From positions 1-38,494 of IMG/VR virus record IMGVR_UViG_3300046714_000392: 38,494 nucleotides of DNA; one strand, 5' to 3'. Positions 17,651 to 33,763 of this stretch are shown here, one piece after another (within the stretch, counting starts at the first letter, position 1; every line of letters starts with the position of its first letter). The notes beneath the pieces are model-generated. The model saw only the letters and a list, made by a program, of their open reading frames with translations. It did not search any database and had not been told where the DNA came from. The DNA is from a virus. A program made the translations under genes and the position numbers.

Positions 17651-19297
17651 TCATCGCCACGCGCGCACAGGCGCGCCGCGGAATTGCTTCGCATGCACCA
17701 TCTCGTGCGGGCGCAGGATGGTGTCGGGAACGATCTTGTCCGCGGGATGCAGGTCGATCAGCGCGGGCGGATTCGGGTTGAGATGGCGCCGAAGGTTGCG
17801 CCAGAGATACATGAGCGCTGCTACGGCATCGCCGTGACCCAGCACAGATGAGCGTTGCCAATCGGTGCGCGAATCGTTCCACTGACAGCTGCGCAGTTGC
17901 GCGATGAGGGGTCCGGAGTCATCCCAGATCTCAATCTTGTTCTGCTGGAAAGCAAACCGTAGGGCGTTTAGCGCGGCCTCCGCATCGTCCTTGGCCGTTG
18001 GCGAAAACTGCAGGCCGTACAGAACGCTCATATCCAGGATGACCTGGGCGGCCGTGTCACTGACACGCAAATACGGGTTAGGGCGAAACGTGCGCTCGAT
18101 ATCGTCCCAATAGGTGAGCGTATCGGGCGGCGTTTCCCATATCAGGCCGCCGCGAGTACGCACAGCGTCCAGGATCGTCATCGTAGGCACGAGCGGGTTG
18201 TGTTCGCGCCGGCCGTGCGCTGTACCCCAGAGTTCCTGCTCTACGCGCTTGCAGACATCGGCTGACTCGGCGGTAGAAGCGTTGGCCTTGGCCCAGCTGC
18301 GCTGGATGACCAGCTTGTCGCGCGCCCAATCGACATAGCCCCAGATCATCCCGAACGGATCGCGCGTGCCTGGGTCCGCGGCCGTGTAGCAGTGCGCGTA
18401 CTGCGGCACGATGCCCGGCTTTACGACGTGCTTTGCCTCGTTGAATTCGGGCACGACGCTGTCTTCGGGATCGCGTTCGCAGATGCAAAAGAGCTCGCGC
18501 TTGCAGGTCGGGTGATCGCGCCCGCCCGCGCGGGCAATCTCTGTTTCGATATCGTCCTGGGTGAGCTCGGTATTGTCTTCGATCGTATGCAGCGAGTAGC
18601 AGCCGCGGGCGCGGGCATCCTCGCGAAACACCGTGTTGAATTCGTGATCGGGCTGCTTCGCGGTAGACGACTCCAGGGCTATCCATGCCCAGGGCCTACG
18701 ACTGAATTGCGGATAGATGTTGGCGCGTACCGTTTCCTCTAGATCCGTAACGAAGCCCGCCTCGGTTACGATGCAGAAGTCGAGATAGCTACCGCGCAGC
18801 GCGTCCGCGTGCTTATCGAGGCCTACCAGCTTAATGGAGCTGTCTACGGCCGACAGATAAAGGCACTCATGGTCGCCGGTCGCGGCGTTGGTGCCCTTGT
18901 ATTCGGGATAGTAGCCCGCGGGCGCATCGGCAAAGAGGAGCTTGGTAAGCGGCACGATGATGCCGCCGATGCTCTTCTGCAGCGGCGTAGCGATCATGCC
19001 GCGCGCGCCTGGGCGGCGCAGGCATTCGCGCGCGCCCAGGATGAGCCACTTGGCGGTCTTACCCCAGCGCCGGCCTTTTTCGTCACACCAAAGGTTATCG
19101 AATTGATGGCCCGCGTCTCGGATGCGCTTGCGGTAGCCATCCTGCTGGCGCTCGTGATTCCAGGCTTCAAAGCGCTCGAAGTCCGATAGCTGATGGCGCT
19201 GCAGCTTGTAGGCGAGCCGGCCGGTCTGATACAGGATGCGTATGCGCTCAGACTCGCTGAGCGCCGCTGGGTCATCTATCTCGTGCGGCCCGCTCAC
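17651..19297 (-). CDS. terL: Terminase large subunit (DNA-packaging ATPase/nuclease)
   Basis: 548 residues from a GTG at 19297 (GGAG eight bases upstream, overlapping the previous stop as GTGA). ATPase domain: Walker A-like GRRWGKT (residues 75-81), Walker B with catalytic Glu in LDFCIVTEA (E179), and the coupling motif ALESST (207-212). RNase H-like nuclease domain: acidic residues D308 (TAADPGT), D377 (TILDAV) and D490 (GHGDAVAAL). It translocates DNA through the portal and cuts the concatemer. All key residues are present. Headful packaging would fit the absence of visible defined ends, but this is inference. Confidence 0.95.
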   Translation of the reverse strand: MSGPHEIDDPAALSESERIRILYQTGRLAYKLQRHQLSDFERFEAWNHERQQDGYRKRIRDAGHQFDNLWCDEKGRRWGKTAKWLILGARECLRRPGARGMIATPLQKSIGGIIVPLTKLLFADAPAGYYPEYKGTNAATGDHECLYLSAVDSSIKLVGLDKHADALRGSYLDFCIVTEAGFVTDLEETVRANIYPQFSRRPWAWIALESSTAKQPDHEFNTVFREDARARGCYSLHTIEDNTELTQDDIETEIARAGGRDHPTCKRELFCICERDPEDSVVPEFNEAKHVVKPGIVPQYAHCYTAADPGTRDPFGMIWGYVDWARDKLVIQRSWAKANASTAESADVCKRVEQELWGTAHGRREHNPLVPTMTILDAVRTRGGLIWETPPDTLTYWDDIERTFRPNPYLRVSDTAAQVILDMSVLYGLQFSPTAKDDAEAALNALRFAFQQNKIEIWDDSGPLIAQLRSCQWNDSRTDWQRSSVLGHGDAVAALMYLWRNLRRHLNPNPPALIDLHPADKIVPDTILRPHEMVHAKQFRGAPVRAWR

Positions 19298-19491
19298 CTT
19301 GCTAGCTCCGCCTCCTGGGCGCGATGCACATCCTCGATTGCGATGCGCAGGGCCGCGCTCAGGTTATGCAGGCGCGTCAGGTTCTTCGGCGAAAACTTCG
19401 CAAGGTAGGGCGCCGCGTCATAGCGCTTGAGCTCTACCGCGGCATCGCCCGCAAGGCCCAGCAGCACTAAGAGCGCACCGTCGCGATCCAT
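19294..19491 (-). CDS. Small helical protein of the terminase operon
   Basis: 65 residues, mostly helical (RLHNLSAALRIAIEDVHRAQ). The start forms TAATG with the preceding stop and the stop overlaps the terminase GTG, so all three are coupled. Family not recognised. It could be a packaging accessory. Confidence 0.6.
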   Translation of the reverse strand: MDRDGALLVLLGLAGDAAVELKRYDAAPYLAKFSPKNLTRLHNLSAALRIAIEDVHRAQEAELAR

Positions 19492-19814
19492 TACGCGGCA
19501 TCCTTGGGCGGCTGGGGATCGTCTTCGTAGGCGCTACCAGGTAGCGAGTACGCCACGCCCGCCAGCACGTCCTGATAGGCTGGGATGAGCAACTCGGAAA
19601 CGTACCGGTCGAAATACGGGTCGCCGGCAAAGCGGCGGCGGTAGCGATTGGCTAGCCCGCGCACGGGCATCGGCAACTTCGCCCAATGCTTCGCGCACAC
19701 GACGTGATCGATGCCTATAGCCGCGCCGCAATCGGGGATAGCGCAATGCCGCTGCTTAGGCGGCGCTACCTCGCACTTGGGCAAGCTCATCCGAGGCTTG
19801 ATCAGCCTACTCAT
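19491..19814 (-). CDS. Zinc-finger-like protein of the terminase operon
   Basis: 107 residues. CAIPDCG and CAKHW (about residues 24-42) form a C-x4-C ... C-x2-H arrangement suggestive of one zinc site. The rest is basic then Pro/Asp-rich. Proteins of this kind often precede terminase genes in proteobacterial phages. A DNA-binding role in packaging or late regulation is possible. Confidence 0.6.
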   Translation of the reverse strand: MSRLIKPRMSLPKCEVAPPKQRHCAIPDCGAAIGIDHVVCAKHWAKLPMPVRGLANRYRRRFAGDPYFDRYVSELLIPAYQDVLAGVAYSLPGSAYEDDPQPPKDAA

Positions 19815-20149
19815 TGCGCCCCCTTGCGCTTAGAGGGCCAGGGCTCGGGGTAGGCCTTATCGGTCGCGACCCAGATCGCTGCGCGCATGCCGCTACGGGT
19901 TTTACGCGTGCGACCCGAATCCTTTACCAGGCCCGCCTGCTCTAGCTCGATACGCCGCGGGCGCTGGCTAGATGGATTCATGCTCAGCACGTTCTGGATC
20001 TCTTCGTCGGTAAGGCCGTCTGACCAGCGCTGGATGAGCGTATAGACGCGCAGGCGGGCGTTGGGTGCCTTATCCGCGTAGCCGACCGCGGCGGCCTTGG
20101 ACGTGGCGGAGTGCGCTTGAAACGCTAGATCGGTTTGCTCGAATGGCAT
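19811..20149 (-). CDS. Winged-helix DNA-binding protein, possible small terminase or late regulator
   Basis: 112 residues. Residues ~34-95 read as a winged helix: LRVYTLIQRWSDGLTDEEIQ, then a recognition helix (NPSSQRPRRIELEQAGLV), then a beta wing (KTRSGMRAAIWVAT). The same type of domain detects promoter or pac DNA in many phages. It lies two genes before large terminase, the usual position of the small subunit. No diagnostic TerS motif is visible. Confidence 0.6.
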   Translation of the reverse strand: MPFEQTDLAFQAHSATSKAAAVGYADKAPNARLRVYTLIQRWSDGLTDEEIQNVLSMNPSSQRPRRIELEQAGLVKDSGRTRKTRSGMRAAIWVATDKAYPEPWPSKRKGAQ

Positions 20150-20512
20150 TTAGAGCTCCGCGCTTAGCTTTGGTAGCTGCCCGCGCTGCAGGGCCTCGAC
20201 TTCGTCCAGCGTCTGCGACTGGATAACGACTACGCGCCCGCCGCCGTTCTTATCGCTGTCGGCCTTTTGCTGCTGGCCCGCGGCGATGAGATGCAGTTCG
20301 ATAATCCTGGATGCAGCCTTTTCGCGCATGTTGTCGCGGCGGCTGTCGCGGGCCAGGCGAGCCAGAATCGCGACCATGTCAGCGAGGTGCGGGCTGGTCA
20401 GATCCAGCAGATTGGTAAGCGCGGCCTTGACCTGCTCGTTAGAGACGCCTGGGGCCATTAACCGGACTCGGGAACCTGAGGCCATTACACGCTGTGTAAC
20501 GAGCGCCCCCAT
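20150..20512 (-). CDS. First gene of the late operon, possible packaging-recognition protein
   Basis: 120 residues. Residues ~20-80 are helical (NEQVKAALTNLLDLTSPHLA; MREKAASRIIELHLIAAGQQ) with an armadillo-like feel, followed by a short C-terminal tail. An alternative candidate for the small terminase. The annotated ATG at 20512 has GAGGA only one base upstream, so starts at residue 11 or 20 are possible. The palindrome at 20485-20499 lies in its first codons. Confidence 0.6.
   Translation of the reverse strand: MGALVTQRVMASGSRVRLMAPGVSNEQVKAALTNLLDLTSPHLADMVAILARLARDSRRDNMREKAASRIIELHLIAAGQQQKADSDKNGGGRVVVIQSQTLDEVEALQRGQLPKLSAEL
20485..20499. promoter_or_regulatory. Palindrome TTACAC-gct-GTGTAA
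   Basis: Perfect six-base arms with a three-base centre, at the very start of the late operon's first gene. A possible operator or translation-blocking hairpin. A related pair, TTACACC...GGTGTAA, lies at 22314-22336 across the far end of the adjacent small operon. Confidence 0.35.
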
Positions 20513-20554
20513 TCCTCACAAACGGGGCCATCAGATACGTGGTAGATTACCCGC

Positions 20555-20605
20555 GGCGGCTGGCTGGCATACACCCAAGCACACAACCCGAGTCAGCTAG
20601 CCGCC
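20555..20605. other. Long hairpin in divergent intergenic region (1)
   Basis: GGCGGCTGGCTG (20555-20566) pairs over 12 bp, with one G-T pair, with CAGCTAGCCGCC (20594-20605). It lies in the 235-bp gap (20513-20747) between the late operon (minus) and the small plus operon. In either direction it would form in the 5' leader, so a leader-RNA or antitermination role is possible. No convincing -35/-10 pair is visible in the gap. Confidence 0.45.
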
Positions 20606-20693
20606 AGTAACTATTGCGGACGGCGGGCGCGCCTGTGATAGGCTCTGGCCTGCGTTCTGACTCTCCTCAAGGCTGATTGGTTTCACGGGGCAT

Positions 20694-20735
20694 GGCCCGC
20701 CAGCAGGTTTGGATGGCTCCTATCGCTGGCGGGCC
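20694..20735. other. Long hairpin in divergent intergenic region (2)
   Basis: GGCCCGCCAGC (20694-20704) and GCTGGCGGGCC (20725-20735) form a perfect 11-bp stem with a 20-base loop, ending 12 bases before the ATG at 20748. It could occlude the ribosome site of that gene or act as a leader element. Confidence 0.5.
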
Positions 20736-20747
20736 TTGTAGTTAGCG

Positions 20748-20945
20748 ATGGATGCGGCTCACACACATTGGCAATTCATTACGCCGATCGGCACGCTGAA
20801 AGTGCACGTCGATAAGCCGCTCAGCCGTAGTGAGTTGGCCCTGGCTCTACGCGCCGCGGCAAAGGGCGCTGAGTCGCCCCTCGTGCCCTGGCAGAGCACT
20901 ACCCGCTGGCAGCGCATGCAGCGCTGGCTGCGGGGCCTGGTGTGA
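20748..20945 (+). CDS. Small unknown protein, first gene of plus operon
   Basis: 65 residues. The N-terminus is beta-type (HWQFITPIGTLKVHV) and the C-terminus is basic and amphipathic (RWQRMQRWLRGLV). The ATG is shortly downstream of a strong hairpin. The stop overlaps the GTG of the next gene. Family unknown. Confidence 0.55.
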   Translation: MDAAHTHWQFITPIGTLKVHVDKPLSRSELALALRAAAKGAESPLVPWQSTTRWQRMQRWLRGLV

Positions 20946-21163
20946 AACAGCGTAAGGGCGGTAACCGCACATCCCATGCGAGGCATGCGCTCTTGTTCAC
21001 GTTCCTGTGCGAGATTTGCGGCAAGCGCATAGAGCGCCTCGTGCCGCCGCGAATCGGGCTATGTTACGCGTGTAGAGACGCCGCGCCTGGGCGGCCGGCA
21101 CAGGATCTCAGAATCGATGGCCTGGACATGGAAATGGTCCAAAGGAGCTCCGATGGCTACTAA
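20942..21163 (+). CDS. Zinc-ribbon protein
   Basis: 73 residues from a GTG overlapping the previous stop (GTGA). CEICGK and CYACRD form two CxxC knuckles about 19 residues apart, a classic zinc ribbon, preceded by a basic N-terminus (KQRKGGNRTSHARHA). Likely a nucleic-acid or protein-binding regulator of the small plus operon. Confidence 0.6.
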   Translation: MKQRKGGNRTSHARHALLFTFLCEICGKRIERLVPPRIGLCYACRDAAPGRPAQDLRIDGLDMEMVQRSSDGY

Positions 21164-21482
21164 GCAGAGTCACCATCATCACCACCACGATCCCGACTGC
21201 GACCCGCCGCCCGAGCCGTGCGATCCGCCGCCGCCTGTGTTCACGCCGATCCCGGTGCCTACGGGCTTTCCGCCGGAGCTGAATACGAACCTCGCTGCAA
21301 CGCCCGAGGACGCTGGCGAATTTATGTATTTCGCCTACTTCAACTACGTAAAGCTGTACTTCGCAGTGCCGCCGCCAAGCTGGATCCAGCTGGATGAGGT
21401 TACGCGCGGAGGTTGGCTGCAGGCTGCGACCAATGTGCTGAGCGCAATCGAGTCGCTATTGCCGCCGCCGCCTGAGCCCTGA
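21153..21482 (+). CDS. Proline-rich protein with a natural six-histidine run
   Basis: 109 residues from the ATG at 21153, chosen because AAAGGAG precedes it; an earlier in-frame ATG (21117) has no site. The N-terminus reads MATKQSHHHHHHDPD, followed by a Cys/Pro/Asp stretch with DCDPPPEPCDPPPP. A folded part comes after residue ~55 (FMYFAYFNYVKLYFAVPPP) and the end is a helix and prolines. The His run and acidic/Cys stretch could bind metal, as in phage tail tips, but the role is unknown. Confidence 0.6.
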   Translation: MATKQSHHHHHHDPDCDPPPEPCDPPPPVFTPIPVPTGFPPELNTNLAATPEDAGEFMYFAYFNYVKLYFAVPPPSWIQLDEVTRGGWLQAATNVLSAIESLLPPPPEP

Positions 21483-21492
21483 GGAATAAGCC

Positions 21493-21774
21493 ATGCCTAG
21501 CGCAACAGATACAGACCAGATGCAGGTAAGGGTGCGCAATACCTTTGCCGGCTTTGAAGCGCTCAAAACGCTGGCGGAAGTAGGCGCAGCACTCAGCGCA
21601 TCCAGCGGCCCGATCACGTTCGCGACTGGCCCGAGCATCCAGACAGGCACCGGTGACCCTACCAACGTTGTACAGGCCGCGCAGGGCTCGCTATTTCTAC
21701 GTACGGATGGCGGCGCTGCGACAACGCTGTATGTCAAAACCGGCCCGCTGATTACCAACTGGACGGCGAAGTGA
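21493..21774 (+). CDS. Tail-fibre-type small protein
   Basis: 93 residues, preceded by GAGGAA. The C-terminal GSLFLRTDGGAATTLYVKTG followed by TNWTAK is the module commonly found at the end of trimeric tail fibres and neck proteins. The N-terminal half is helical. Possibly a short free-standing fibre or collar component made from its own operon. Confidence 0.65.
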   Translation: MPSATDTDQMQVRVRNTFAGFEALKTLAEVGAALSASSGPITFATGPSIQTGTGDPTNVVQAAQGSLFLRTDGGAATTLYVKTGPLITNWTAK

Positions 21775-21780
21775 CAGCGG

Positions 21781-22041
21781 ATGCGGCTGCTAGATCCGGT
21801 CGAGATGTCATCGGGCGCTGGCTATCAGGTACGCGCCTACGATGACGCGTCAGACATGTATTGCTGCGAATGCGTGCCCAGGAGCACATGGCGTCTGGGC
21901 GGGCGCGAGTACGCGGAGCATCATGCGATGTTGATGCTGCGCGCTGTCGCCTGGGCGATGCGCAAATACGACATACCGCCTAGCTGGCAGACGGCTTACT
22001 ACCGCGTAGCCGGTAAATGGCCCGAGGGAATGCAGATATGA
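21781..22041 (+). CDS. Unknown protein
   Basis: 86 residues. DMYCCECVPRSTW gives a Cys cluster, followed by a helical region (EHHAMLMLRAVAWAMRKYDI). It starts shortly after the previous stop, and its own stop overlaps the next ATG (ATGA), tying it to the membrane protein downstream. Not recognised. Confidence 0.55.
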   Translation: MRLLDPVEMSSGAGYQVRAYDDASDMYCCECVPRSTWRLGGREYAEHHAMLMLRAVAWAMRKYDIPPSWQTAYYRVAGKWPEGMQI

Positions 22042-22178
22042 TTACGGCGGCGTTTATCATCCTGTGCGTGGCCGTGCTGGTGCTGGCATCGCTCAGCCCT
22101 TCATGGCCTGGCTACGCGGCGCTGGCCCTCGCGCTGATAGCGCTTCTGCTAGCGGTCGTGCCCGGGTTTCTGCGCTAG
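22038..22178 (+). CDS. Two-helix small membrane protein, holin candidate
   Basis: 46 residues, starting in an ATGA overlap with the previous gene and ending at a TAG at 22176. It consists almost wholly of two hydrophobic helices (residues 2-19, ITAAFIILCVAVLVLASL; residues 26-44, YAALALALIALLLAVVPGF) split by SPSWPG. The layout of a minimal class-II holin or pinholin, last in a late-looking operon. No endolysin lies beside it, so a membrane role other than lysis is possible. Confidence 0.55.
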   Translation: MITAAFIILCVAVLVLASLSPSWPGYAALALALIALLLAVVPGFLR

Positions 22179-22227
22179 GCGTGTTTTGAAGTACCGGCTG
22201 GCTTCATATGCGGTTAAGCTCGCGCCG

Positions 22228-22287
22228 GTGAAAACCCGAATCGCAAAAACCTTCGACTTTGACGCGGCGCACCATCTACCGACCGTT
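22228..22287 (+). pseudogene. QueD/PTPS-like N-terminal remnant
   Basis: From a GTG at 22228, twenty codons read VKTRIAKTFDFDAAHHLPTV, matching the signature start of 6-carboxy-tetrahydropterin synthase (QueD) and PTPS enzymes (F-x-F-D-A-A-H-x-L-P, with the zinc-ligand His). Right after it the resemblance stops in all three frames: the expected EGHKC...LHGH is absent and the frame runs into an opposing gene, ending at 22410. Probably the scar of a lost 7-deazaguanine gene at a module boundary. No other pathway gene is seen here. Confidence 0.6.
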
Positions 22288-22345
22288 GGCCTCGGAGTTT
22301 GCGTATGGGCATATTACACCTGTATGCGGGGTGTAAGCGTAGCGA

Positions 22346-22843
22346 TTACGGCTCGAATGGCTTCAATGCGGCCTCTAGCGCGTCGATCGCAGCCTGACAG
22401 ATTGGCGTAGGCGATAGCGTCGCATTGTAGGCGTCTGTAGCGGCGGAGGCGGCCTGGATAAGGGCGTTATGCGCCTGTGCATCTACGGTGTACATGAAGC
22501 GCCCGCCCTGCGCCCAGACCTTCGGGTCAACGGCGATGCCGGCCTCGGCTACGAGAGGGCGCACTAGCGGGCCGTGGGCGCGATCGGCATGAGATGCACA
22601 GGTCTCGTGCACAATTTCGCGCTGCTGGCGAGTAGGTTCAGCCTCGATAATCATCGCTTTCAGCGCGGCGTTATAGGTCGCCCACCACCGATCTTGGCGC
22701 AGGGCCTCTACAAGGCTGGCATCGGCGCTGTTGGCGGCGAGCTCTAGCGCCTCGACACGGGCGACCAGCTCCAGCCGCTCGTTAGAAAGCGCCTCAAGCA
22801 TGCTCTGCAGCGCGGCGTAAGAGACTTCAACAGAGTCGCTCAT
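22346..22843 (-). CDS. Unknown protein, last gene of early region
   Basis: 165 residues from the ATG at 22843 (GGAAGG upstream). A longer reading would run into the tRNA gene. The N-terminal half is a coiled coil (ALQSMLEALSNERLELVARV) and the remainder is helical. Its 3' end meets the plus-strand QueD-like remnant frame head-on. Family unknown. Confidence 0.6.
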   Translation of the reverse strand: MSDSVEVSYAALQSMLEALSNERLELVARVEALELAANSADASLVEALRQDRWWATYNAALKAMIIEAEPTRQQREIVHETCASHADRAHGPLVRPLVAEAGIAVDPKVWAQGGRFMYTVDAQAHNALIQAASAATDAYNATLSPTPICQAAIDALEAALKPFEP

Positions 22844-22870
22844 AGCGCCAGTACCTTCCATCGGACGTAG

Positions 22871-22951
22871 TGCGGGCGGCTGGAATCGAACCAGCCATGC
22901 GATAAACGCAACGGGTTTACAGCCCATCCAGAGCCCAGCTCTATCGCCCGC
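22871..22951 (-). tRNA. tRNA-Tyr (GTA anticodon), short D-arm
   Basis: Found by folding the minus strand (81 nt). The acceptor stem is GCGGGCG/CGCCCGC with discriminator A. The anticodon stem is ATGGG/CCCGT (one T-G) with loop CTGTAAA, giving anticodon GTA. The long variable arm is TGCG-tttat-CGCA, as expected for bacterial tRNA-Tyr, and the T-arm is GCTGG-TTCGATT-CCAGC. The D-arm is unusually small (AGAG-ctggg-CTCT). CCA is not encoded. It may supplement Tyr decoding or resist host anticodon nucleases. The reduced D-loop leaves full function uncertain. Confidence 0.85.
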
Positions 22952-22964
22952 GAAAACAGTACCT

Positions 22965-23007
22965 ACCGCAAAAGCAAAGCGCCGGCTAGGGTTGAGCTGG
23001 CCGGCGC
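22965..23007 (-). terminator. Hairpin terminator of the minus early transcript
   Basis: GCGCCGGC (22979-22986) pairs with GCCGGCGC (23000-23007). Read on the minus strand the hairpin is followed by TTTGCTTTTG. It lies after the gene ending at 23039 and before the tRNA, so it could reduce read-through or set a 5' end for tRNA processing. Confidence 0.55.
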
Positions 23008-23038
23008 GAGCGGGCTTTGTAGAGACTGCAGCGAGGCG

Positions 23039-23227
23039 CTAGCCAGGCTCGATACCGGCGAACACGCGGGCGCACTTGCTGACGCTGGCGGCCAATCGCT
23101 GGCTATCTACGGCGTAGCGGAGCGACAGCGCGCTCTGGACGTGCGCAGCCTCGACTACGTGCTGGCGGGCGTTGGCGTACAAGTCCGCGGCGGCAGCCTG
23201 CAGCTCCAGCTCGGCGGGCTTGGCCAT
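23039..23227 (-). CDS. Small unknown helical protein
   Basis: 62 residues, mostly helical, with many Ala and Val (ELELQAAAADLYANARQHVV). The start forms TAATG with the preceding stop. A terminator follows. Not recognised. Confidence 0.5.
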   Translation of the reverse strand: MAKPAELELQAAAADLYANARQHVVEAAHVQSALSLRYAVDSQRLAASVSKCARVFAGIEPG

Positions 23228-23424
23228 TAGCGGCGCACCCAGTGACAGCCAGTGGCGTCACAGCGCTGCTCGGGCGCGTCGGGCTGCGTAACCGATGCGG
23301 CGAGCTCTGAGGCGCCATGGATAGCGCGGTCCACGGTGTGGGTCACGGCGCGGTGAATGCCGGGTAGAGCGCTACCAAAGGCGTAGCAGGCGTAGATGAA
23401 CAGAGCGTTGCGGAGAACTTCCAT
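23227..23424 (-). CDS. Small membrane protein
   Basis: 65 residues from the ATG at 23424, chosen for AAGGA nine bases upstream. The N-terminal 20 residues (EVLRNALFIYACYAFGSAL) can form a signal anchor, and the C-terminus carries CDATGCHWVRR. Function unknown. Confidence 0.5.
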   Translation of the reverse strand: MEVLRNALFIYACYAFGSALPGIHRAVTHTVDRAIHGASELAASVTQPDAPEQRCDATGCHWVRR

Positions 23425-23436
23425 TAGCAAAAATCC

Positions 23437-23634
23437 TTAGAGTGCGTCTTCGCCATTTTCAAGAATGATGTGTCGCAAGATGTCGTTACCATCCCACAGC
23501 TGAACGATCCTATCGCGTTGTTGGGCGAACGCGACGGCTTCAGCCAGCGTTCCCCGCCCATCCTCCGCATGGTCAAACCCATGCCTCAGGATGAGCCATT
23601 TATATACCTCGGAGTTAGCGAGCAAAGATGCCAC
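23437..23634 (-). CDS. Small unknown protein
   Basis: 65 residues, no recognised domain; contains DGRGTLAEAVAFAQQRDRIV. Its start lies inside the 3' end of the upstream gene (20-bp overlap), which supports coupled translation. Confidence 0.5.
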   Translation of the reverse strand: MASLLANSEVYKWLILRHGFDHAEDGRGTLAEAVAFAQQRDRIVQLWDGNDILRHIILENGEDAL

Positions 23635-23839
23635 TGGCCTCGGCGCTGAGCGCCTCGTAATCCAGCGCGCTCAGGTCAAGCCCGCCCATCGTTGCGCTGT
23701 ACCCGTTTTCAACCAGGCGCGTAACTTCGGGGCCGCCGCGCCCGGCTTTGAGCTCTGCCAATAACTTGGCCAAACGCCGCCCGCCAAACGCATGATTCGC
23801 GCCACTCTCGTGCAGAAGATAAACAACCTTGTTCACCAT
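23615..23839 (-). CDS. Small unknown protein
   Basis: 74 residues, basic centre (FGGRRLAKLLAELKAGRG) and acidic C-terminus (LSALDYEALSAEASG). Overlaps the next gene by 20 bp. Not recognised. Confidence 0.5.
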   Translation of the reverse strand: MVNKVVYLLHESGANHAFGGRRLAKLLAELKAGRGGPEVTRLVENGYSATMGGLDLSALDYEALSAEASGIFAR

Positions 23840-23905
23840 CCAAGCATGACGCAGCCAGTACTAAGAATCAATCAGGGCGTGGATGTGTGATAAAAAATCA
23901 GGGGG

Positions 23906-24154
23906 CTACTTGCTCAGGATAGGCTTGAAAACGCCGCAGTAGGCGCACATGAGCAGCCGCACTAGCTTACCGCGGCAGAAGGGGAAGAATGCGCCTGGGT
24001 TGCCATCAGGGTGCACCATGCGGATGACGCGCTTGTCCTCATCGTGCAGGTCGTAGCGTACCTCCTGGTGCCAGCAGCGGCGACAGCGATAGGCGTCACT
24101 GGGTATCCAGCGATGGGCTGTAGGGTCGGTGTCGCAGGGGAAGTCGGGGGGCAT
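23906..24154 (-). CDS. Small zinc-binding protein
   Basis: 82 residues. YRCRRCWHQE and CAYCGVF supply two CxxC pairs about 46 residues apart, with a further Cys at FPFCRGK. This suggests a treble-clef or ribbon zinc fold. The region before the start carries no good ribosome-binding site, so the start is uncertain. Not identified further. Confidence 0.5.
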   Translation of the reverse strand: MPPDFPCDTDPTAHRWIPSDAYRCRRCWHQEVRYDLHDEDKRVIRMVHPDGNPGAFFPFCRGKLVRLLMCAYCGVFKPILSK

Positions 24155-24358
24155 AAACGATCTGAAGGAGATTTAGGGAAAGAGTGGTTGAGTCCCATTG
24201 ACCCCTGATCCGGTGCCCGAAAGGCGAGAATTCTAGGTCTGCGGCCCCGGATGCCATTTCTAGGCTCTGCCTATTCTTCCCAGGCATGTCGGAATTGCCA
24301 GAGCTAGGCCTTGAATGCCTACACGTAGACTCATAGGCTTGGCGACGGAACGGACGTG

Positions 24359-24364
24359 TGTAAT
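24359..24364 (+). promoter_or_regulatory. Putative -10 box for the hairpin RNA
   Basis: TGTAAT matches five of six consensus bases and would start transcription near 24371, at the edge of the hairpin block. The -35 region is poor: TTGGCG lies only 14 bases upstream. An activator may be needed, or the call may be wrong. Confidence 0.35.
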
Positions 24365-24370
24365 CTAGCC

Positions 24371-24668
24371 TGGAGAACTCCCTCCGGGAGTCCAGAGGGA
24401 CGAAGACTCCCGGATCCTCCGGAGCGAGGGACGAGCCCGGATCCCACCCTCAGGGTGGCGAGCCCAGAGCGAGCCGCGACCGTCGTCGGAGACGACACCG
24501 TCGGAGACGCGATCCTGGTGCGAGGGACGAGCGCGATCTTCCTCTGCTGGCGGAGACAGGGTCGGAGACAGCTAGAGCTGGTGCAGCGCAACAGCGCGGA
24601 TTTTCTCGAGAGAGATATCGCTGCGCGTAGGGACAGGCCCTAGAAATGCCTTGAAACAAGGCGTTTTT
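24371..24668 (+). ncRNA. Candidate structured small RNA with repeated GAGGGACGA hairpin loops
   Basis: A likely non-coding block of about 300 bases inside a 417-bp gene-free stretch (24155-24571). H1: a 10-bp stem TCCGGGAGTC/GACTCCCGGA (24383-24414). H2: TCCGG-a-GC/GC-CCGGA (24418-24441). H3: GATC...GTGC/GCGC...GATC (24511-24538). All three expose the same nine-base loop GAGGGACGA on unrelated stems. Further hairpins are CCACCC-tca-GGGTGG (24444-24458), GTCGTC-gga-GACGAC (24482-24496) and CGTC-gga-GACG (24499-24509). I count 13 GGA triplets on this strand. The loops contain A-N-GGA, the core seen in CsrA/RsmA sponge RNAs. A terminator ends it at 24648-24668. The 3' part is antisense to a small minus gene. 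Confidence 0.55.
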
Positions 24669-24814
24669 GCTTCACATACGAGGCCGTATGTCACCCCTAC
24701 CCTCCCGAAACGGGTAGGGTAATACTTAATGGGACGCGCCTTAGCCTGCCAGCGGAACGCGGGATCGGCGTTGGGGGCTGCTGGAGCGTTAGCGCCGTTA
24801 TCGCTGTCATCCAT
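24572..24814 (-). CDS. Small unknown protein antisense to RNA 3' end
   Basis: 80 residues. The ATG at 24814 follows the upstream stop closely, with an AGG-rich stretch before it, which supports the start. The N-terminus is disordered (DDSDNGANAPAAPNADP), then comes KYYPTRFGRVGVTYGLVCEA. The last third overlaps the hairpin and terminator region of the opposite strand, where codon choice would be constrained. Uncertain. Confidence 0.45.
   Translation of the reverse strand: MDDSDNGANAPAAPNADPAFRWQAKARPIKYYPTRFGRVGVTYGLVCEAKTPCFKAFLGPVPTRSDISLEKIRAVALHQL
24648..24668 (+). terminator. Rho-independent terminator
   Basis: GCCTTG-aaa-CAAGGC (24648-24662) followed by GTTTTT. It is oriented to end the plus-strand hairpin RNA. 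On the minus strand the tail would be ATTTCT, much weaker. Confidence 0.65.
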
Positions 24815-24821
24815 ACATAAC

Positions 24822-24995
24822 CTACCTGCCTACGGATAACGCGGGCGCCGTGTGCGCATATGCATACGCAAGCCGCATACTAGCGCTGCAGTCCTCGGTC
24901 ATACACCAAAGGGTGAGTACGCCGATGGTAGCGAGTACGACTAGCAAACAGCCGAGGTCGAGCCGGGTGTCAGCGTTAGGGTGATGTGTAGTCAT
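24822..24995 (-). CDS. Small membrane protein (57 residues)
   Basis: Starts in an ATGA overlap with the upstream zinc protein's stop and ends at a TAG at 24822. Residues 12-30 form one membrane helix (LDLGCLLVVLATIGVLTLW), followed by a short tail with AYAYAHTAPA. The DNA for that tail carries the GCATACG-type motif found near the regulators. Unknown function. Confidence 0.5.
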   Translation of the reverse strand: MTTHHPNADTRLDLGCLLVVLATIGVLTLWCMTEDCSASMRLAYAYAHTAPALSVGR

Positions 24996-25249
24996 GAGCG
25001 TAGCCTCGTCATGATGATGGCCTGCACGATACGCATCAGCTCGGGCGGCGCCTCGCTACGCTCTGCCAGCGAGGCGCTACGAAGCTTCAAGGCGTCATCG
25101 AAGCGCAGGATAGCGCCGCAGCCGATACAGACAGAGAAGTCACCAGGGATAGGGCCTTTGATGCCCTCAGGGTCGCTGGCGCAATCGAGCAGCTGGCCGC
25201 ATTCGGGACAATAGTCAGCGCTTAGGCGCGTTTCTAGCCATTCAGTCAT
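24992..25249 (-). CDS. Zinc-ribbon protein of phage type
   Basis: 85 residues. CPECGQLLDC and CIGCGAIL (about residues 14-48) form a four-Cys zinc ribbon, followed by the conserved-looking LRFDDALKLRSAS. This family is common in phage early regions, role unknown. It is coupled by overlaps to genes on both sides. Confidence 0.65.
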   Translation of the reverse strand: MTEWLETRLSADYCPECGQLLDCASDPEGIKGPIPGDFSVCIGCGAILRFDDALKLRSASLAERSEAPPELMRIVQAIIMTRLRS

Positions 25250-25509
25250 GCGGCATTACCTCCGTGCTGGCTTTGCCGCTGGGCGGCATGCTCCTCAGCA
25301 TCGGCGCCTACCATGGCGTCCGCGAGCGCTGCGAGCGCGGTCCAATTGCGAGCGTCCCGTAGGCGCTCTAGGCCCCGATTGAACCAATCACAATGACAGT
25401 GATAGCCGGCTCTAAAGCCGCGTACGTAGGCCGTGTAATACGCTGCGCCTACCGTTGTAATCCAGATGACTACGGCTGCAATTGCCGCATAGGCCATGGC
25501 ATCACTCAT
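25246..25509 (-). CDS. Single-pass membrane protein
   Basis: 87 residues from the ATG at 25509, which lies inside the end of the upstream gene. One membrane helix (MAYAAIAAVVIWITTVGAAYY), then HCHCDW and a helical tail. Function unknown. Confidence 0.55.
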   Translation of the reverse strand: MSDAMAYAAIAAVVIWITTVGAAYYTAYVRGFRAGYHCHCDWFNRGLERLRDARNWTALAALADAMVGADAEEHAAQRQSQHGGNAA

Positions 25510-25702
25510 CGCCCCTAGGCGGCTGAACCTCATCATTTAGCTGCATGACGCGTCCGACGCGCTCGGCCAGCCACTCGTAGTCCTCTTCGCGCGTCCAATC
25601 GTTGGCATCCTGCAGCCGCCGCCGCAAGTCCATGATCATGCCAACCGCAAACCCCAGGGCCAGCATTGCTGTGGTGTAACGCTCGCGATCAATCTCAGTC
25701 AT
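25502..25702 (-). CDS. Small unknown protein with hydrophobic helix
   Basis: 66 residues from the ATG at 25702 (ATGA overlap with the upstream stop). TAMLALGFAVGMIMDLRR may be membrane-inserted. The remainder is charged and helical. Not recognised. Confidence 0.5.
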   Translation of the reverse strand: MTEIDRERYTTAMLALGFAVGMIMDLRRRLQDANDWTREEDYEWLAERVGRVMQLNDEVQPPRGDE

Positions 25703-26025
25703 AGCCACACACCCACGATAGCGGGCACGTCGTCGCGTGAGCGGCCCATGAAGAACAGACCGGGATAGATCAGCTGGATCCATTCGGAAGCCTCAGCCTC
25801 AGAGACAAACATCAGCCGGATAGGGCTCGTGGTAGGCCCAGGTTCGCCCCCGCCGATGTAACTAGCCTGCAGCTCGTAGTCGGTGCTCGTGCTGTGCACG
25901 TTGGCGTATAGCGTGAGCATGAATAGCTCATCGTGTCTGGGCCAGCGCCAGGGCGATGCCGCGGGCAACTGTAAGAGCTCTACCTCAACCTGAGACTCCT
26001 GCTGGTTATTAGCTTGGCTTGCCAT
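25699..26025 (-). CDS. Unknown protein
   Basis: 108 residues from the ATG at 26025 (purine-rich GGGGGGAAA upstream). An earlier in-frame start lies within the upstream gene and would give an unusual Arg/Trp-rich leader. Mixed alpha/beta with LFMLTLYANVHSTSTDYELQ and SEWIQLIYPGLFFMG. Family unknown. Confidence 0.5.
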   Translation of the reverse strand: MASQANNQQESQVEVELLQLPAASPWRWPRHDELFMLTLYANVHSTSTDYELQASYIGGGEPGPTTSPIRLMFVSEAEASEWIQLIYPGLFFMGRSRDDVPAIVGVWL

Positions 26026-26425
26026 CGTTTCCCCCCGTTTTCGTCGTTTGCGCGTCCAGTGCCATCCCCGCCATGCCGCCGCTCGGAAACAGCTTGCAGC
26101 GCATGGCCTGCGCCAGCGTCCAGCCCTGCGCGCTACGCATGAGATCGATAGCGCCGTCATCCAGCGCTACGAAATCGCACAGCGCCTTGACCGCCAGCAT
26201 GTCAGCGACCATCAAGAGCTCCGCCAGGTTCATGCCTCCGGGTACCTGACGCATCATGTCTACCAGCGCTACGCGCATGAGCCTCTTGAGCATGTGTATA
26301 CGCGCCGGGTCGGCATTCAAGTGCGCCATGGCCTCGACCATGCTCTCAGCGATGTCCACTACAGAGCGCTCGATAGGTCCGCTCTCAAACTCCACTACGA
26401 TACGGCCGCTGCTAGGACTTGCCAT
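26009..26425 (-). CDS. Unknown helical protein
   Basis: 138 residues, many Met/Leu/Ala helices (MLKRLMRVALVDMMRQVPGG; NLAELLMVADMLAVKALCDF). Overlaps both neighbours. No recognised domain. Confidence 0.55.
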   Translation of the reverse strand: MASPSSGRIVVEFESGPIERSVVDIAESMVEAMAHLNADPARIHMLKRLMRVALVDMMRQVPGGMNLAELLMVADMLAVKALCDFVALDDGAIDLMRSAQGWTLAQAMRCKLFPSGGMAGMALDAQTTKTGGNDGKPS

Positions 26426-26684
26426 GTTCGTCCTTTTCCTTGGTCAACTCCAGCCCGACAACCCAATCCTGGGTGTGCTCGTACGCACGTATCCGGTCTA
26501 TCAACTGCCGATGCTCGCGCTTCACGTCTACCAAGTCCATCTGCGTGTCGAACAGCTCACGGCATGTAGCCATGTACTTCGCATGCAGCTCCGAGCGCGA
26601 TTGCCGGATGCGCTCTGTAACCGAGACCGTATACGCAAACGACAGTATCGCTATCAGTACGGCGATGAAGCCTAGCCAGGCCAT
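26412..26684 (-). CDS. Membrane-anchored coiled-coil protein, spanin-like topology
   Basis: 90 residues. One N-terminal membrane helix (WLGFIAVLIAILSFAYTV), then a charged periplasm-type coiled coil (LHAKYMATCRELFDTQMDLV and beyond). Inner-membrane spanins (Rz) look like this, but there is no overlapping Rz1 lipoprotein or endolysin here, so lysis is only one option. The start forms TAATG with the upstream stop. Confidence 0.55.
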   Translation of the reverse strand: MAWLGFIAVLIAILSFAYTVSVTERIRQSRSELHAKYMATCRELFDTQMDLVDVKREHRQLIDRIRAYEHTQDWVVGLELTKEKDEHGKS

Positions 26685-27070
26685 TACCGCATCCGCTCGG
26701 AGATGAGCCGAAACTCATCGAAGATCTTCTGTGCCTGCTCCAGCCCGATGTCTAAGATCAGGCGCCTCAGGGCGGTATGCTTGGCCGGAGGCCCTTCGTC
26801 CTCATCGAACTGCACTCGCACTTCGCTATCGCTCAGTAGCTCTACCTGCGCATTGCGTCCGTTCGACTTACTGGCCTTGGCTTTCTTGCCGCGCTTGAGC
26901 GGCTTCATGCCCGACCGCCTACGCGCATTGAAGCGCGCCTGAGTGATTTGCTTACGCGTAGCGCCTTTGCGCTCCGTAGCCGCAAGCGTAATCAGCTCAT
27001 CTAGCGACTTATCGAAGCCTTGCTTCGTTATCCACTCAACTAAGCTACCCTCGTACGGTGTTCCGCCCAT
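26684..27070 (-). CDS. Basic, probably DNA-binding protein
   Basis: 128 residues. A highly basic centre (RFNARRRSGMKPLKRGKKAK) separates an N-terminal helical domain (KSLDELITLAATERKGATRK) from a C-terminal helical domain. It may act on DNA in the early region. Family unknown. An 86-bp gap without visible features follows upstream (27071-27156). Confidence 0.55.
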   Translation of the reverse strand: MGGTPYEGSLVEWITKQGFDKSLDELITLAATERKGATRKQITQARFNARRRSGMKPLKRGKKAKASKSNGRNAQVELLSDSEVRVQFDEDEGPPAKHTALRRLILDIGLEQAQKIFDEFRLISERMR

Positions 27071-27156
27071 GTCTTAGATGGCTCCCTATCCCTCACAGAA
27101 ACTCAAAGCCTTTGCGCTCCGCCGCCTTAGGCTCCTCAGCGGTAAGCGCCGGCCAA

Positions 27157-27624
27157 TCATTGCAGCGCCCCTAGCCATGCGTAGAGCTGGCGTTGCGTAG
27201 CGAACTCCGCCGCAGCGAATACCTCCACGAAGTCAGCGGTAAGCACTTCGCGATAGGCCACAATGGCGCGCACCAGGCGCTTAGGCGCGACTGCGCAGCC
27301 GTCATCGCTCACAAACCAGGCTTCGTAGCGCCATGCAGCCGCGCCCACAGGCCAGCCATCGGCGAGCTTGCGACCATGCGGCATGAACACAAACAGCCGC
27401 ACATCGGGGCTAGGCGCAGCCCAGGCTACTAAGCCAGCGCGGGCGAATGCGTCATGACCCAGCACATCCAGCCGCGAGATGGCGTTGCACTTGCCGCGCT
27501 TGCTTACGGTCCACTCCAGGCGCGCAGGCTCCTTAGGTGGCGCGTTCTCGTAGCCGCGGCCAACACAGATGTAGCGGTCAAAGGGCGGGGCGACAGTTAG
27601 GTATTCATGTGCGATCTGCGACAT
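27157..27624 (-). CDS. Unknown early protein
   Basis: 155 residues. The ATG at 27624 has an excellent GGAGGG site. Alpha/beta with DVRLFVFMPHGRKLADGWPV and AAWRYEAWFVSDDGC. No catalytic motif is recognised. Well-formed start and length make it a secure gene. Confidence 0.6.
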   Translation of the reverse strand: MSQIAHEYLTVAPPFDRYICVGRGYENAPPKEPARLEWTVSKRGKCNAISRLDVLGHDAFARAGLVAWAAPSPDVRLFVFMPHGRKLADGWPVGAAAWRYEAWFVSDDGCAVAPKRLVRAIVAYREVLTADFVEVFAAAEFATQRQLYAWLGALQ

Positions 27625-27636
27625 AGACCCTCCGAG

Positions 27637-27954
27637 TCAGCGTAAGAATTCCTTGATGCGCGCCGCGGTCTTGACCGCCAGCCGATGCCCGAAGCCGCTG
27701 GTAACCAGCAGTAGCGTCACGGGCGAGATGCCCAGCTCCGCCGCGACCGGGCACGCGCCCTTTTCATCGATCATGTTTCGCAGCCGATCGATCTCCGACT
27801 TCGTGATCTCGTTGCGATCAAAGCGCCCGCCCAGGTCGAACAGCTCGGTAATGTTGCTGGCGCCTCGAATGCGCCTTACCGGCGCCTCATCGCGGATGCC
27901 GCGCACGGTAGGGCGGCCGGCGCGAGGGATAGTGCGAGCTGCGGAACGTGGCAT
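27637..27954 (-). CDS. Helix-turn-helix-like protein
   Basis: 105 residues from the ATG at 27954 (CGGAG seven bases upstream). The N-terminus is basic and unstructured. C-terminal residues ~62-100 read as a helix-turn-helix (ACPVAAELGISPVTLLLVTS). Probably a regulator acting within the early operon; the motif-bearing DNA at 28039-28120 lies just upstream. Confidence 0.55.
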   Translation of the reverse strand: MPRSAARTIPRAGRPTVRGIRDEAPVRRIRGASNITELFDLGGRFDRNEITKSEIDRLRNMIDEKGACPVAAELGISPVTLLLVTSGFGHRLAVKTAARIKEFLR

Positions 27955-28038
27955 GTGGTGTCTCCGTTGTTGAACTGCGACGTTGAAGCGCACGCTAGCG
28001 CCGCTCGGAACTGAAAATCAAGCTTGTTTACACGCCGC

Positions 28039-28120
28039 GCATACGATTCATGCATACGCATTGCGTGAGCTAGCCGACGTTCCCGTCGCTTTGCGCGCGA
28101 GCCATACGCTTACGCATACG
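28039..28120. promoter_or_regulatory. Cluster of GCATACG motifs
   Basis: GCATACG occurs at 28039, 28052 and 28114, with a related CATACG at 28103. The first two are direct repeats 13 bp apart. They cover the end of the upstream gene and its junction with the next. The same core recurs at 24862, 32870, 33764-33784 and 33797. Likely sites for one of the phage's regulators. Confidence 0.45.
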
Positions 28121-28269
28121 CCCGCTTCGCGAGCCTCGCGCCTGAGCGCGTCATACTCTGACCTGGTGAGACTAGCCTTGACCGCATATGCGCGTAGGCG
28201 GTCTGGGTCTTTCGGCTTACGGCCAGCACCCGCGCGCCGGCCTCCATGCTGTTTCGGTTCTCTCGCCAT
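28048..28269 (-). CDS. Ribbon-helix-helix-like DNA-binding protein
   Basis: 73 residues. A basic Gly-rich start (GGRRAGAGRKPKDPDRLR), then a beta strand (YAVKASLTRSEYDALRREAR) with the ribbon-helix-helix spacing and a second helix (VSVWLARKATG). Typical of small phage repressors or mobilisation regulators. The start codon itself lies in a GCGTATGG sequence resembling the operator-like motif, so self-regulation is conceivable. Confidence 0.55.
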   Translation of the reverse strand: MAREPKQHGGRRAGAGRKPKDPDRLRAYAVKASLTRSEYDALRREAREAGVCVSVWLARKATGTSASSRNAYA

Positions 28270-28765
28270 ACGCGCTACATGCCAGCGTCAGCACTGAGAA
28301 TCAACATGGCGGCAACAGGCGTCCCTAGCCGGCGCTAGTGTCCAAACGAAATCGTCGATCGGGCATGATAAATTACGCCAGCGTTCCTCGTTGATCGGTA
28401 TCGTTTGCTGGGGCGGATGAGGATCAAGATCTCTCTTGTGTTAAGAAGAGACCTCTCTTAGAGTCTGAGGCGGTTGGGTGGGGCGGGGGAGATCACAGAT
28501 GTTAACGTTAGTGATCGCGCGCGCGCCCGGGGGTAGTCAAAAGCGTTTGCGATAGACCGCTCAGTTCCGTCACTTGCGCACGCCGCTGCGAAAAATCTCT
28601 GAGCCCTAGCAGGGGCCTCGAACCCGACACGCAGTGCCGCCAGGACGTTACGCGTTGCACCGTCCACTCGGATAAGAGCCCAGAGAATTGCCGTGTGTCA
28701 CATAACGTGACCGCTTGTCAACTGACACCTTTTCACTAGGAAACGGCGCAGGCGCTATGAGGCTC
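28270..28765. other. Gene-free 496-bp region, possible origin or promoter region
   Basis: No credible gene on either strand. It holds GTCAC-ataac-GTGAC (28697-28711), TGTCA-ac-TGACA (28716-28727), a pyrimidine/purine-rich hairpin-forming stretch around 28430-28465, an alternating GC run (28517-28528), and on the minus strand a consensus TTGACA (inside the second palindrome) without a well-spaced -10. It may hold the replication origin or the promoter for the downstream minus genes; neither is shown. Confidence 0.35.
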
Positions 28766-29116
28766 TCAGCGGCCAGGATGCCAGGATGCTTGGATTGATA
28801 GCCGCGCGGCGTTTGCGGGCTTCCAGGGAGCTCCAGCGAGGCGCAACTCGTATTCCCTGAGGTAGTAGGCCTGCGCCGCGGCAATGTACTTCGCCTGCGT
28901 GGGCGCATCCTCCTGGGGATAGCGTGTAATGGCTATAAGAGCGGCGCTAACCTGGACGTAAGCCGCCCAGGCGTCTACCAGATCATCTCGCTGGCGCTCG
29001 CACCTATACGGCGGGCTACCAATGCGCAGCATGCTACCGCAGCCGCTACTCGTGACAGCTGCTATGACGGCGGCCAGCGCCGCCGCGTAGAGTGAACGCC
29101 ATCGGGGCCTGGGCAT
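28766..29116 (-). CDS. Secreted or lipoprotein-like protein
   Basis: 116 residues. Arg-rich start, hydrophobic helix (LYAAALAAVIAAVTSSGC) ending in a Cys at a possible signal-peptidase II site. The box is imperfect, with Ser at -3. The mature part is helical (AAAQAYYLREYELRLAGAPW). Likely exported to the periplasm or outer membrane; superinfection exclusion is one possible role. Overlaps the upstream gene by 55 bp. Confidence 0.55.
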   Translation of the reverse strand: MPRPRWRSLYAAALAAVIAAVTSSGCGSMLRIGSPPYRCERQRDDLVDAWAAYVQVSAALIAITRYPQEDAPTQAKYIAAAQAYYLREYELRLAGAPWKPANAARLSIQASWHPGR

Positions 29117-29301
29117 GGTGGCCTAGTATACAACCTACGGTGGTGATCCTTGTGTAGGCACCAGATGCAGCGGTCGCGGCCGTACTTCCACTCCTCAGGC
29201 GTTTTGGGCGTGCTGTAGACATGGCTGCGCCCTCGCTGGCGTAGGCGTCTAGCGCGCCACAGGGCCAGCCAGATCACGGCCAGGCGCAGGAGCGCTTTCA
29301 C
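29062..29301 (-). CDS. Small basic protein with Cys/His pair
   Basis: 79 residues from a GTG overlapping the methyltransferase stop (GTGA). Hydrophobic N-terminus (LLRLAVIWLALWRARRL), then RCIWCLHKDHH, a possible metal site. The substantial overlap with the next gene makes the C-terminus less certain. Confidence 0.45.
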   Translation of the reverse strand: MKALLRLAVIWLALWRARRLRQRGRSHVYSTPKTPEEWKYGRDRCIWCLHKDHHRRLYTRPPCPGPDGVHSTRRRWPPS

Positions 29302-30074
29302 TTGTCAGCCTCGAACATCGGGACCTGTTCGGCGCGGGCTTCATGCTGCGCCCACATGTTGACCGTGTAGCCCTTGGCGATGCGCGCCTGCGCCTTGCGA
29401 TACGTGGTCGGGTCAAGCTCCGCGCCTACCGCCCGCCTACCTTCGATAGCTGCAGCGATCAGCGTCGTAGCGCCGCCCGCGCAGGGATCGCAGACCAGAT
29501 CCCCAGGGCGCGAGTAGTCGCGCACTAGTTGCTGCATGAGCCAGAGGGGTTTGCCGCCCTTGATTGGCCGCCCGCCACGCATTCCGACAATGGATGGCGG
29601 CGGCACATACCCGCCCGGCAATGAGCCCCAGGTCTGAAACCGACGCTCGCGAGGCCTTGCTACCATGATCCAGCAAGTCCAACTAGCAGGGCCATCCCCA
29701 GCTAGTCGGGGCTGTTTTCCGATTTCTACGAATGGCAACGGCTGAAAGACATACCTGTTGGCCTCTAGTAATGCGGCCTCAAAGGCCGGCGCTAATACAT
29801 GATCTGTTATCGCAACGAACCAGCCGCGAACACGAGGCATCCAACCAGATACAAACGCCTTCACATCAGCGACGGTCCAGCTTGGGTATTCGATGGCGGC
29901 GCGTTGGCGCGGTCCACCACCGGCGTATCGATTGGATTTCGCCGAATCAAACACGTTTACGCGCACGCCCTCATGCGTACGCTCTGAGTACGGCGGATCG
30001 CAAATAAGACAATCAACCTGGGTTATGTCAGCGAGGGCTACCCTCCAATCGCCACAGCGGAGATCTATGCTCAT
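29298..30074 (-). CDS. DNA methyltransferase (adenine- or cytosine-N4-type, beta order)
   Basis: 258 residues from the ATG at 30074 (ATGA overlap). The catalytic DPPY is at residues 26-29 (LICDPPYSERT) and the AdoMet-binding DPCAGGATT at 196-204, followed by GAELDPTTY. Catalytic motif before the AdoMet motif is the beta-class order typical of phage N6-adenine and N4-cytosine methylases. It probably protects phage DNA from host restriction or marks it for regulation. No partner restriction gene is visible, so it is an orphan. Confidence 0.85.
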   Translation of the reverse strand: MSIDLRCGDWRVALADITQVDCLICDPPYSERTHEGVRVNVFDSAKSNRYAGGGPRQRAAIEYPSWTVADVKAFVSGWMPRVRGWFVAITDHVLAPAFEAALLEANRYVFQPLPFVEIGKQPRLAGDGPASWTCWIMVARPRERRFQTWGSLPGGYVPPPSIVGMRGGRPIKGGKPLWLMQQLVRDYSRPGDLVCDPCAGGATTLIAAAIEGRRAVGAELDPTTYRKAQARIAKGYTVNMWAQHEARAEQVPMFEADK

Positions 30075-30535
30075 GCCGCCAACTCCAAACGCACGCCATA
30101 CAGGCGTTGCTGTTGCTGGTAGTACGAAAACGTGTAGCCGCTGCGCATGCCATCGTTGGCGCGCGCATTCACTGTCGTGTAGCCGGCGAGCCATGCGACT
30201 ACCTGGTCTCTGACGGCCTTTGCGGCTGTGCGCAAATTGTCATCGTCTAACATCCGCGGCGCGAGGCGCGTAAAGCCGATTTGCTGGACAGGCGCGCCTA
30301 GATGCTTCTGCACGGCTGCAGGCGTTAGGACGCTGAGCGCTAACATCGTGCGTTCACGCAGCTGTCGGCTGCGGCCTGCAGCTGCGCGCCAGTTGTTAGA
30401 CCATCGCCCCTGGCTCTTGAGCTCGATACCGATCGTAATCACTACGGCGCGCGTAGCGGGGATGAGGATCGATCCTTCGGTCGCGATCCAGTGAACCGCA
30501 TCCTGCTCTAGCCTGCGCTTTGCAACGCGAATCAT
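30071..30535 (-). CDS. RusA-like Holliday-junction resolvase (putative)
   Basis: 154 residues from the ATG at 30535. The key stretch LDDDNLRTAAKAVRDQVVAW has the acidic Asp-rich motif with following Lys and Asp seen in RusA-like endonucleases, then a beta-rich end (SGYTFSYYQQQQRLYGVRLE). RusA cleaves four-way junctions, resolving recombination and replication intermediates before packaging, and would complement the Bet recombinase. Recognition is by motif only. Confidence 0.6.
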   Translation of the reverse strand: MIRVAKRRLEQDAVHWIATEGSILIPATRAVVITIGIELKSQGRWSNNWRAAAGRSRQLRERTMLALSVLTPAAVQKHLGAPVQQIGFTRLAPRMLDDDNLRTAAKAVRDQVVAWLAGYTTVNARANDGMRSGYTFSYYQQQQRLYGVRLELAA

Positions 30536-30765
30536 GGCCGCCTCCTGCGCCGCGCGCGCGCCCAGAGTAAGACGGCATCGCTCAGGCACACGGTAGCCAT
30601 CGTGTAGAGCCAGAGCTCAATGAAGCTAAGATCCACGGTCGCGAATAGCAGATCGGTCATCGCCGATACGCCCAGCGCAGAAGATCGCTCAGCCATATCG
30701 AGCCCAGCGTACAGATCAACAGATGCCACGCTGGCATAATGATGGGTTGCGTAAGGAAGTCGCAT
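30532..30765 (-). CDS. Small membrane protein
   Basis: 77 residues from the ATG at 30765 (GAGG close upstream); an internal ATG at 30660 would give 42. A membrane helix (SFIELWLYTMATVCLSDAVL) is followed by a basic end (RARRRRRP), so the C-terminus would be inside. Overlaps the next gene by ATGA. Confidence 0.45.
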   Translation of the reverse strand: MRLPYATHHYASVASVDLYAGLDMAERSSALGVSAMTDLLFATVDLSFIELWLYTMATVCLSDAVLLWARARRRRRP

Positions 30766-30783
30766 ATCCTCACACCCCAGAGA

Positions 30784-31077
30784 CTACACATGGCGGCACT
30801 CCAGACACGCCCGCGCCCAGGTACGAGGGCCCAGCGCGATCAGCGTAAAGACATGCGATGTCTCAGTGCCGCAGCGCCGGCAATCGTCCCATCTGACTAC
30901 CCTCAGCCCTATCTCGAGATGGCGGCGAGGTATCCAAATCAACTCACCGAAACCAAGGCCAGCAACAGCCCGCGGGTTATCAGCTCCGCGCACTGGCCTC
31001 GGTTCCGGGCAATGGCGTTTGGGCCCAGTAGGGGGGGCTACCGGGTTAGCGCCAAAGATTTCTGTCTGGGTGCTCAC
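30784..31077 (-). CDS. Zinc-binding protein
   Basis: 97 residues from a GTG at 31077 overlapping the previous stop (GTGA). A TTG start 14 codons upstream is also open. C-terminal CRRC ... CLEC (about residues 71-95) forms a zinc ribbon. The N-terminal half is Pro-rich. Not identified further. Confidence 0.5.
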   Translation of the reverse strand: MSTQTEIFGANPVAPPTGPKRHCPEPRPVRGADNPRAVAGLGFGELIWIPRRHLEIGLRVVRWDDCRRCGTETSHVFTLIALGPRTWARACLECRHV

Positions 31078-32410: not shown

Positions 32411-32570
32411 TGCGTGCCCGGTATTTGCAAAGGAGGCTGGCGAACATCGCGTGTCGGCGCTTGCCCGCCAGCAGCTGGCCGCAGCCGCATGCACAGCGCT
32501 CGCGCGCCTTTTGCTCACGGCGGGCGATGCAGTCCGCGCATTCGGCGCCGCAGATTTGACAATGGGCCAC
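32367..32570 (-). CDS. Cys-rich zinc protein overlapping replication gene start
   Basis: 67 residues from a GTG at 32570 (GGGGGA upstream). It carries CQICGAECADC (residues 4-14) and CACGCGQLL, giving up to seven Cys in two clusters, followed by a basic tail. Its end overlaps the next gene by 44 bp. It lies directly after the Cro-like regulator, so it could be a regulator or replication accessory. Confidence 0.5.
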   Translation of the reverse strand: MAHCQICGAECADCIARREQKARERCACGCGQLLAGKRRHAMFASLLCKYRARNAARRHQRRNYQHG

Positions 32571-32610
32571 ACGATCCCCCGATAGCGCCCCAGGGCGGCG
32601 CCGCTGTGGA

Positions 32611-33630: not shown

Positions 33631-33763
33631 CAGGGTAACCTCCGCATCGGGGTCGGGTGTAGCGCATCTGCATGCGTGGCGATCGCGCTGTTTGCAAGCC
33701 GTGCAACGTTTGGTGTCAGCCCGACACACAACGCACACCTAACGCATGGCTGGCGCCCACAAT

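Follow-up and report, generated by a model that had tools for sequence, protein, structure and literature searches.

The block at positions 24371-24668 of the phage genome IMGVR_UViG_3300046714_000392 is tentatively best read, among the single explanations considered, as a lineage-specific noncoding RNA of approximately 300 nt, which is encoded on the plus strand and built from short repeats. The block harbors repeats, an intrinsic terminator, a stable hairpin (H1), a modest second one (H2) and no convincing gene. Since it is gene-free and contains two kinds of repeats as well as a good terminator, it may make a small RNA. This RNA would run rightward, antisense to the surrounding leftward genes, and would end at 24648-24668. 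Its sequence would be composed of local copies of GAGGGACGA with flanks and of GTCGGAGAC. Transcription, its start site, protein binding and the resulting effect are what we infer.

The window, i.e. the whole stretch of DNA that was analysed, is the entire virus record of 38,494 bases. It contains a direct terminal repeat of 127 nt, as expected for a complete, circularly assembled genome. The phage is temperate and possesses genes for a tyrosine integrase (36400-37704, +), a RecT-like annealing protein (34281-35255, +) and an HTH regulator (32929-33333, +). Its leftward structural module comprises the portal (16814-14634, -) and capsid (13211-11871, -) genes, both of which matched PHROGs head families, and an ORF (19297-17651, -) assigned to terL on the basis of its alignment with terminase-like ORFs in relatives. 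Every database match of the integrase, RecT, terL, portal and capsid was distant, and no host was assigned from these. The phage group is sparsely sampled; terL and portal matched only one of 50,697 phage records, with identities of 24-26%. At 22870-22951 (-), ARAGORN called a tRNA-Tyr with the anticodon GTA. The best Rfam match of this segment was tRNA-Sec (43 bits, threshold 47), and no tRNA family reached its threshold. A short group of rightward genes at 21.1-22.2 kb includes ORF 21117-21482 (+), which showed coding-like codon use and naturally encodes six consecutive histidines (KQSHHHHHHDPDC). The block itself is surrounded by small leftward genes, the finding reported here being located on the opposite (+) strand.

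Three exact copies of the nonamer GAGGGACGA are present at 24395-24403, 24426-24434 and 24522-24530, all on the plus strand and within 136 nt. No other exact copy exists on either strand of the 38.5-kb genome, 0.21 copies are expected, and none of 100 shuffles reached three. A second repeat, GTCGGAGAC, which had been overlooked in the sequence-only reading, also occurs three times in the block (24485-24493, 24500-24508 and 24561-24569, all +) and once more with one mismatch (GGCGGAGAC, 24549-24557, +). Its first copy lies inside a 6-bp hairpin, GTCGTC-GGA-GACGAC (P 0.02 against random flanks), and the hairpins at the second and third copies are at chance level. TRF detected no tandem array. 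The three nonamers had been assigned to hairpins (H1, H2 and H3) with unrelated stems. This did not hold, as H2 and H3 are identical at 17 of 19 nt around the loop, and the outer-stem sequence TCCGG...CCGGATCC is common to H1 and H2. Because of this common flanking sequence, H1, H2 and H3 resemble copies of a single short repeat that have decayed to three different degrees.

H1 (24383-24414, +) consists of a perfect 10-bp stem, TCCGGGAGTC/GACTCCCGGA, and a 12-nt loop, CAGAGGGACGAA. Folded alone, it gave -17.6 kcal/mol (z -3.17 against shuffles; P 0.0025 against random flanks drawn from the shuffled block), and most of its pair probabilities in the block ensemble were at least 0.9. H2 (24418-24441, +), which indeed starts three bases after H1, has seven base pairs, a bulged A and the 9-nt loop GAGGGACGA. 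Alone it yielded -9.7 kcal/mol (z -1.59; P 0.033 against random flanks), and its outer pairs showed probabilities of 0.7-0.8 in the block ensemble and about 0.4 in a wider transcript. The claimed H3 (24511-24538, +) includes the third copy of GAGGGACGA, but alone it was no more stable than shuffles (z +0.42; P 0.25 against random flanks). Its pair probability in the block ensemble did not exceed 0.05, and its loop pairs with a downstream UUCCUC instead. A G-T pair within H3 is compatible with the plus strand only. Jointly, the three hairpins gave a P of 0.0008 against random flanks, though the copies are not independent. Of the three proposed hairpins, H1 is strong and H2 modest, whereas H3 does not exceed chance and should not form according to the prediction. 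The nonamer is shared by all three, but the loop of H1 comprises 12 rather than nine bases. H1 and H2 combine an identical loop with arms that differ correspondingly on both sides (GAGTC/GACTC added in H1), which, judged from the sequence, is a single event in favour of pairing.

The high GGA density reported earlier was borne out, the recount giving 14 instead of 13 GGA in 24371-24668 (3.3 expected). Neither the rest of the genome nor the relatives checked contain a 300-nt stretch that equals the block in GGA density. AGGGA occurs four times (0.11 expected); the fourth of these ANGGA sites (24629-24633, +) had a predicted exposure of only 0.29. Exposed ANGGA amounted to 2.3 versus 0.8 in shuffles, none of 60 shuffles being as high. 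Well-exposed sites were confined to the oversized loops of H1 (12 nt) and H2 (9 nt). Exposed ANGGA as predicted by folding, contributed by these two hairpins alone, is the best point for a sponge. The summed GGA exposure of the block was 6.3, compared to 4.2 for shuffles, 17.6 for Escherichia coli CsrB and 8.6 for CsrC. Comparison of the minimum-free-energy fold with shuffled controls, as proposed in the sequence-only reading, revealed an ordinary structure (-124.9 kcal/mol, z about -1 [-1.14]), 34 of 200 shuffles folding as well. Among 120-nt windows, only the terminator region was off background (starts 24551-24641, z -2.8 to -5.1). Two 15-nt arms with 87% complementarity (24255-24269 and 24634-24648) bracket the block; long-range pairing between them had zero probability in the ensemble and was rejected.

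As previously noted, an intrinsic terminator, GCCTTG-AAA-CAAGGC-G-TTTTT (24648-24668, +), resides at the 3' end of the block. By a strict definition the genome has no other terminator, none being present on the minus strand, and 0.575 are expected per shuffled genome. Folding of 24641-24668 gave a z of -5.18. The position of the terminator at the block end renders a coincidence less probable. A simpler scan did not list it, probably because an extension of the stem absorbs the T run. Directly past the terminator, the segment 24674-24719 contains the inverted repeats ACATACG-AGGC-CGTATGT and CCCTACCC...GGGTAGGG, and in windows over this segment the plus strand folded far better than shuffles. 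At the other end, the suggested -10 box (TGTAAT, 24359-24364, +) is present but lacks an acceptable -35 hexamer, and the promoter scan disclosed no plus-strand sigma-70 promoter for the block. ORFs over the block scored non-coding with the exception of 24814-24572 (-), which was ambiguous. This ORF overlaps the terminator and the block's 3' end; its first approximately 25 codons are coding-like and its middle is not, and no convincing protein match was found among phages or in Pfam. A protein-coding reading was discarded, as the plus-strand ORF 24356-24643 scored non-coding and the repeats lie in different frames.

The search for relatives covered viral contigs, for which terL, portal, capsid, two-phage terL and portal alignments, the neighbouring 82-aa protein and two DNA patterns served as queries, and genome contigs, for which terL and an alignment of capsids were used. 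A capsid relative with 59% identity (L054, IMGVR_UViG_3300048939_000020), four portal relatives (L065-L068) and a distant Silvanigrella phage (CP017838.1) were obtained. The structural module is common to the phage and the relatives found. One relative with this module (L055) contains a tRNA-Asn (4857-4933, -) upstream of its terL among small genes. None of the relatives found harbors GAGGGACGA and blastn of the block disclosed only chance matches there, an absence that is incomplete proof because some are fragments and three are short. Blastn of the block gave nothing among phages and only chance-level matches of 31-32 nt among plasmids. Two nonamer copies were found in 51 viral stretches, mostly simple repeats or unrelated sequence. 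None of these searches identified a relative carrying the block. No Rfam family matched the block at its gathering score.

Nearly as likely as the noncoding RNA is a repeat-rich intergenic spacer without RNA function, in which short local duplications decay, H1 represents a palindrome that is left over or arose by chance, and the terminator is a coincidence or a stop for stray plus-strand transcription. This would fit the copies with common flanks, the lost stem of H3, a local folding of 24341-24580 at or above the shuffled mean, the missing conservation of the block and the about half a strict terminator expected per shuffled genome. Less easily explained by a spacer are the terminator, which coincides exactly with the end of a block that makes up little of the genome, and the pairing kept in H1 and H2 despite differing stem sequences. 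The noncoding RNA is favoured by the three clustered nonamers, the sole strict terminator at the block end, H1 and H2 exceeding random flanks, their matched arms, the exposed ANGGA and the G-T pair of H3; the ordinary whole-block fold, the failure of H3, the lack of a promoter, the ambiguous minus-strand ORF over the terminator and the absence of the block from the relatives found speak against it. It is rather improbable that both repeats act at the DNA level and are recognized by a DNA-binding protein of the phage or the host, for instance upstream of the leftward promoter-like site 24257-24230 (-) that precedes the gene 24154-23906. The sites are indeed repeated, non-palindromic and palindromic, and the sole promoter-like match in 18501-38494 reads leftward from 24257, but one match is fewer than the 6.1 in shuffles. 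Since there is neither a DnaA box anywhere nor an AT-rich tract, no sign of an origin was seen, and the lack of DnaA boxes led us to reject a replication origin. Least probable is a leftward (-) sRNA of the alphaproteobacterial ar7 type (RF02342), whose C-rich loops UCGUCCCUC would pair with Shine-Dalgarno sequences. The minus strand of the block resembles ar7 in its two neighbouring hairpins with CGUCCC loops, and a full-length match was obtained at 24463-24332 (-). However, its 22.2 bits fell short of the gathering threshold of 60 (E 1.9 for the window), and the minus strand has no terminator. We rejected this match as noise because a second one of 21.3 bits overlaps the capsid coding sequence.

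In the noncoding RNA, the tandem H1-H2 would present AGGGAC loops and might lure an RNA-binding protein as a decoy or offer it a landing site. If the host has CsrA/RsmA, this would be one candidate binder. A decoy is possible; the more specific proposal that the phage encodes an RNA decoy which arose by copying of a short hairpin unit, targets CsrA/RsmA or some other RNA-binding protein and has no counterpart among known RNA families appears unlikely. Equally doubtful is a CsrB/RsmZ-type sponge proper, which would bind several CsrA/RsmA dimers and free host mRNAs during infection or lysogeny. The sequence weakly favours a CsrA sponge by its 14 GGA, by four ANGGA with an exposure above all 60 shuffles, and by a non-coding block with a 3' intrinsic terminator. 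On the other hand, ANGGA is well exposed at two sites only, one of the three claimed hairpins is unsupported, and neither a strong structure of the whole RNA nor a curated Rfam match was found; by one method the block gave a z of about -1 (-1.0), compared to -4.9 for E. coli CsrB and -5.6 for CsrC. Rules published for RsmE assign high affinity to an ANGGAX hexaloop that sits directly on a stem, and additional bases in the loop reduce affinity (PMC4005645). AGGGAC of the block lies in loops of 9 and 12 nt with extra bases on both sides. A lower affinity for CsrA/RsmA than that of a hexaloop is expected.

At present, the block ranks as a noncoding RNA candidate from a phage group with poor sampling. 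Should this RNA exist and bind CsrA/RsmA, the phage would have a simple route to change host translation. In the literature searched, with partial coverage, we found no report of a phage RNA sequestering CsrA. Like CsrB/CsrC and RsmX/Y/Z, the block is non-coding and GGA-rich, shows some ANGGA in hairpin loops and has an intrinsic terminator. Unlike these RNAs, it exposes far fewer GGA well, folds ordinarily, has oversized loops and lacks an Rfam match. Phages and plasmids are known to carry csrA genes (reviewed in PMC7366521). The likeness is that mobile elements do interfere with the Csr/Rsm pathway; those elements carry the protein, and no CsrA match was found in the genome of the present phage.
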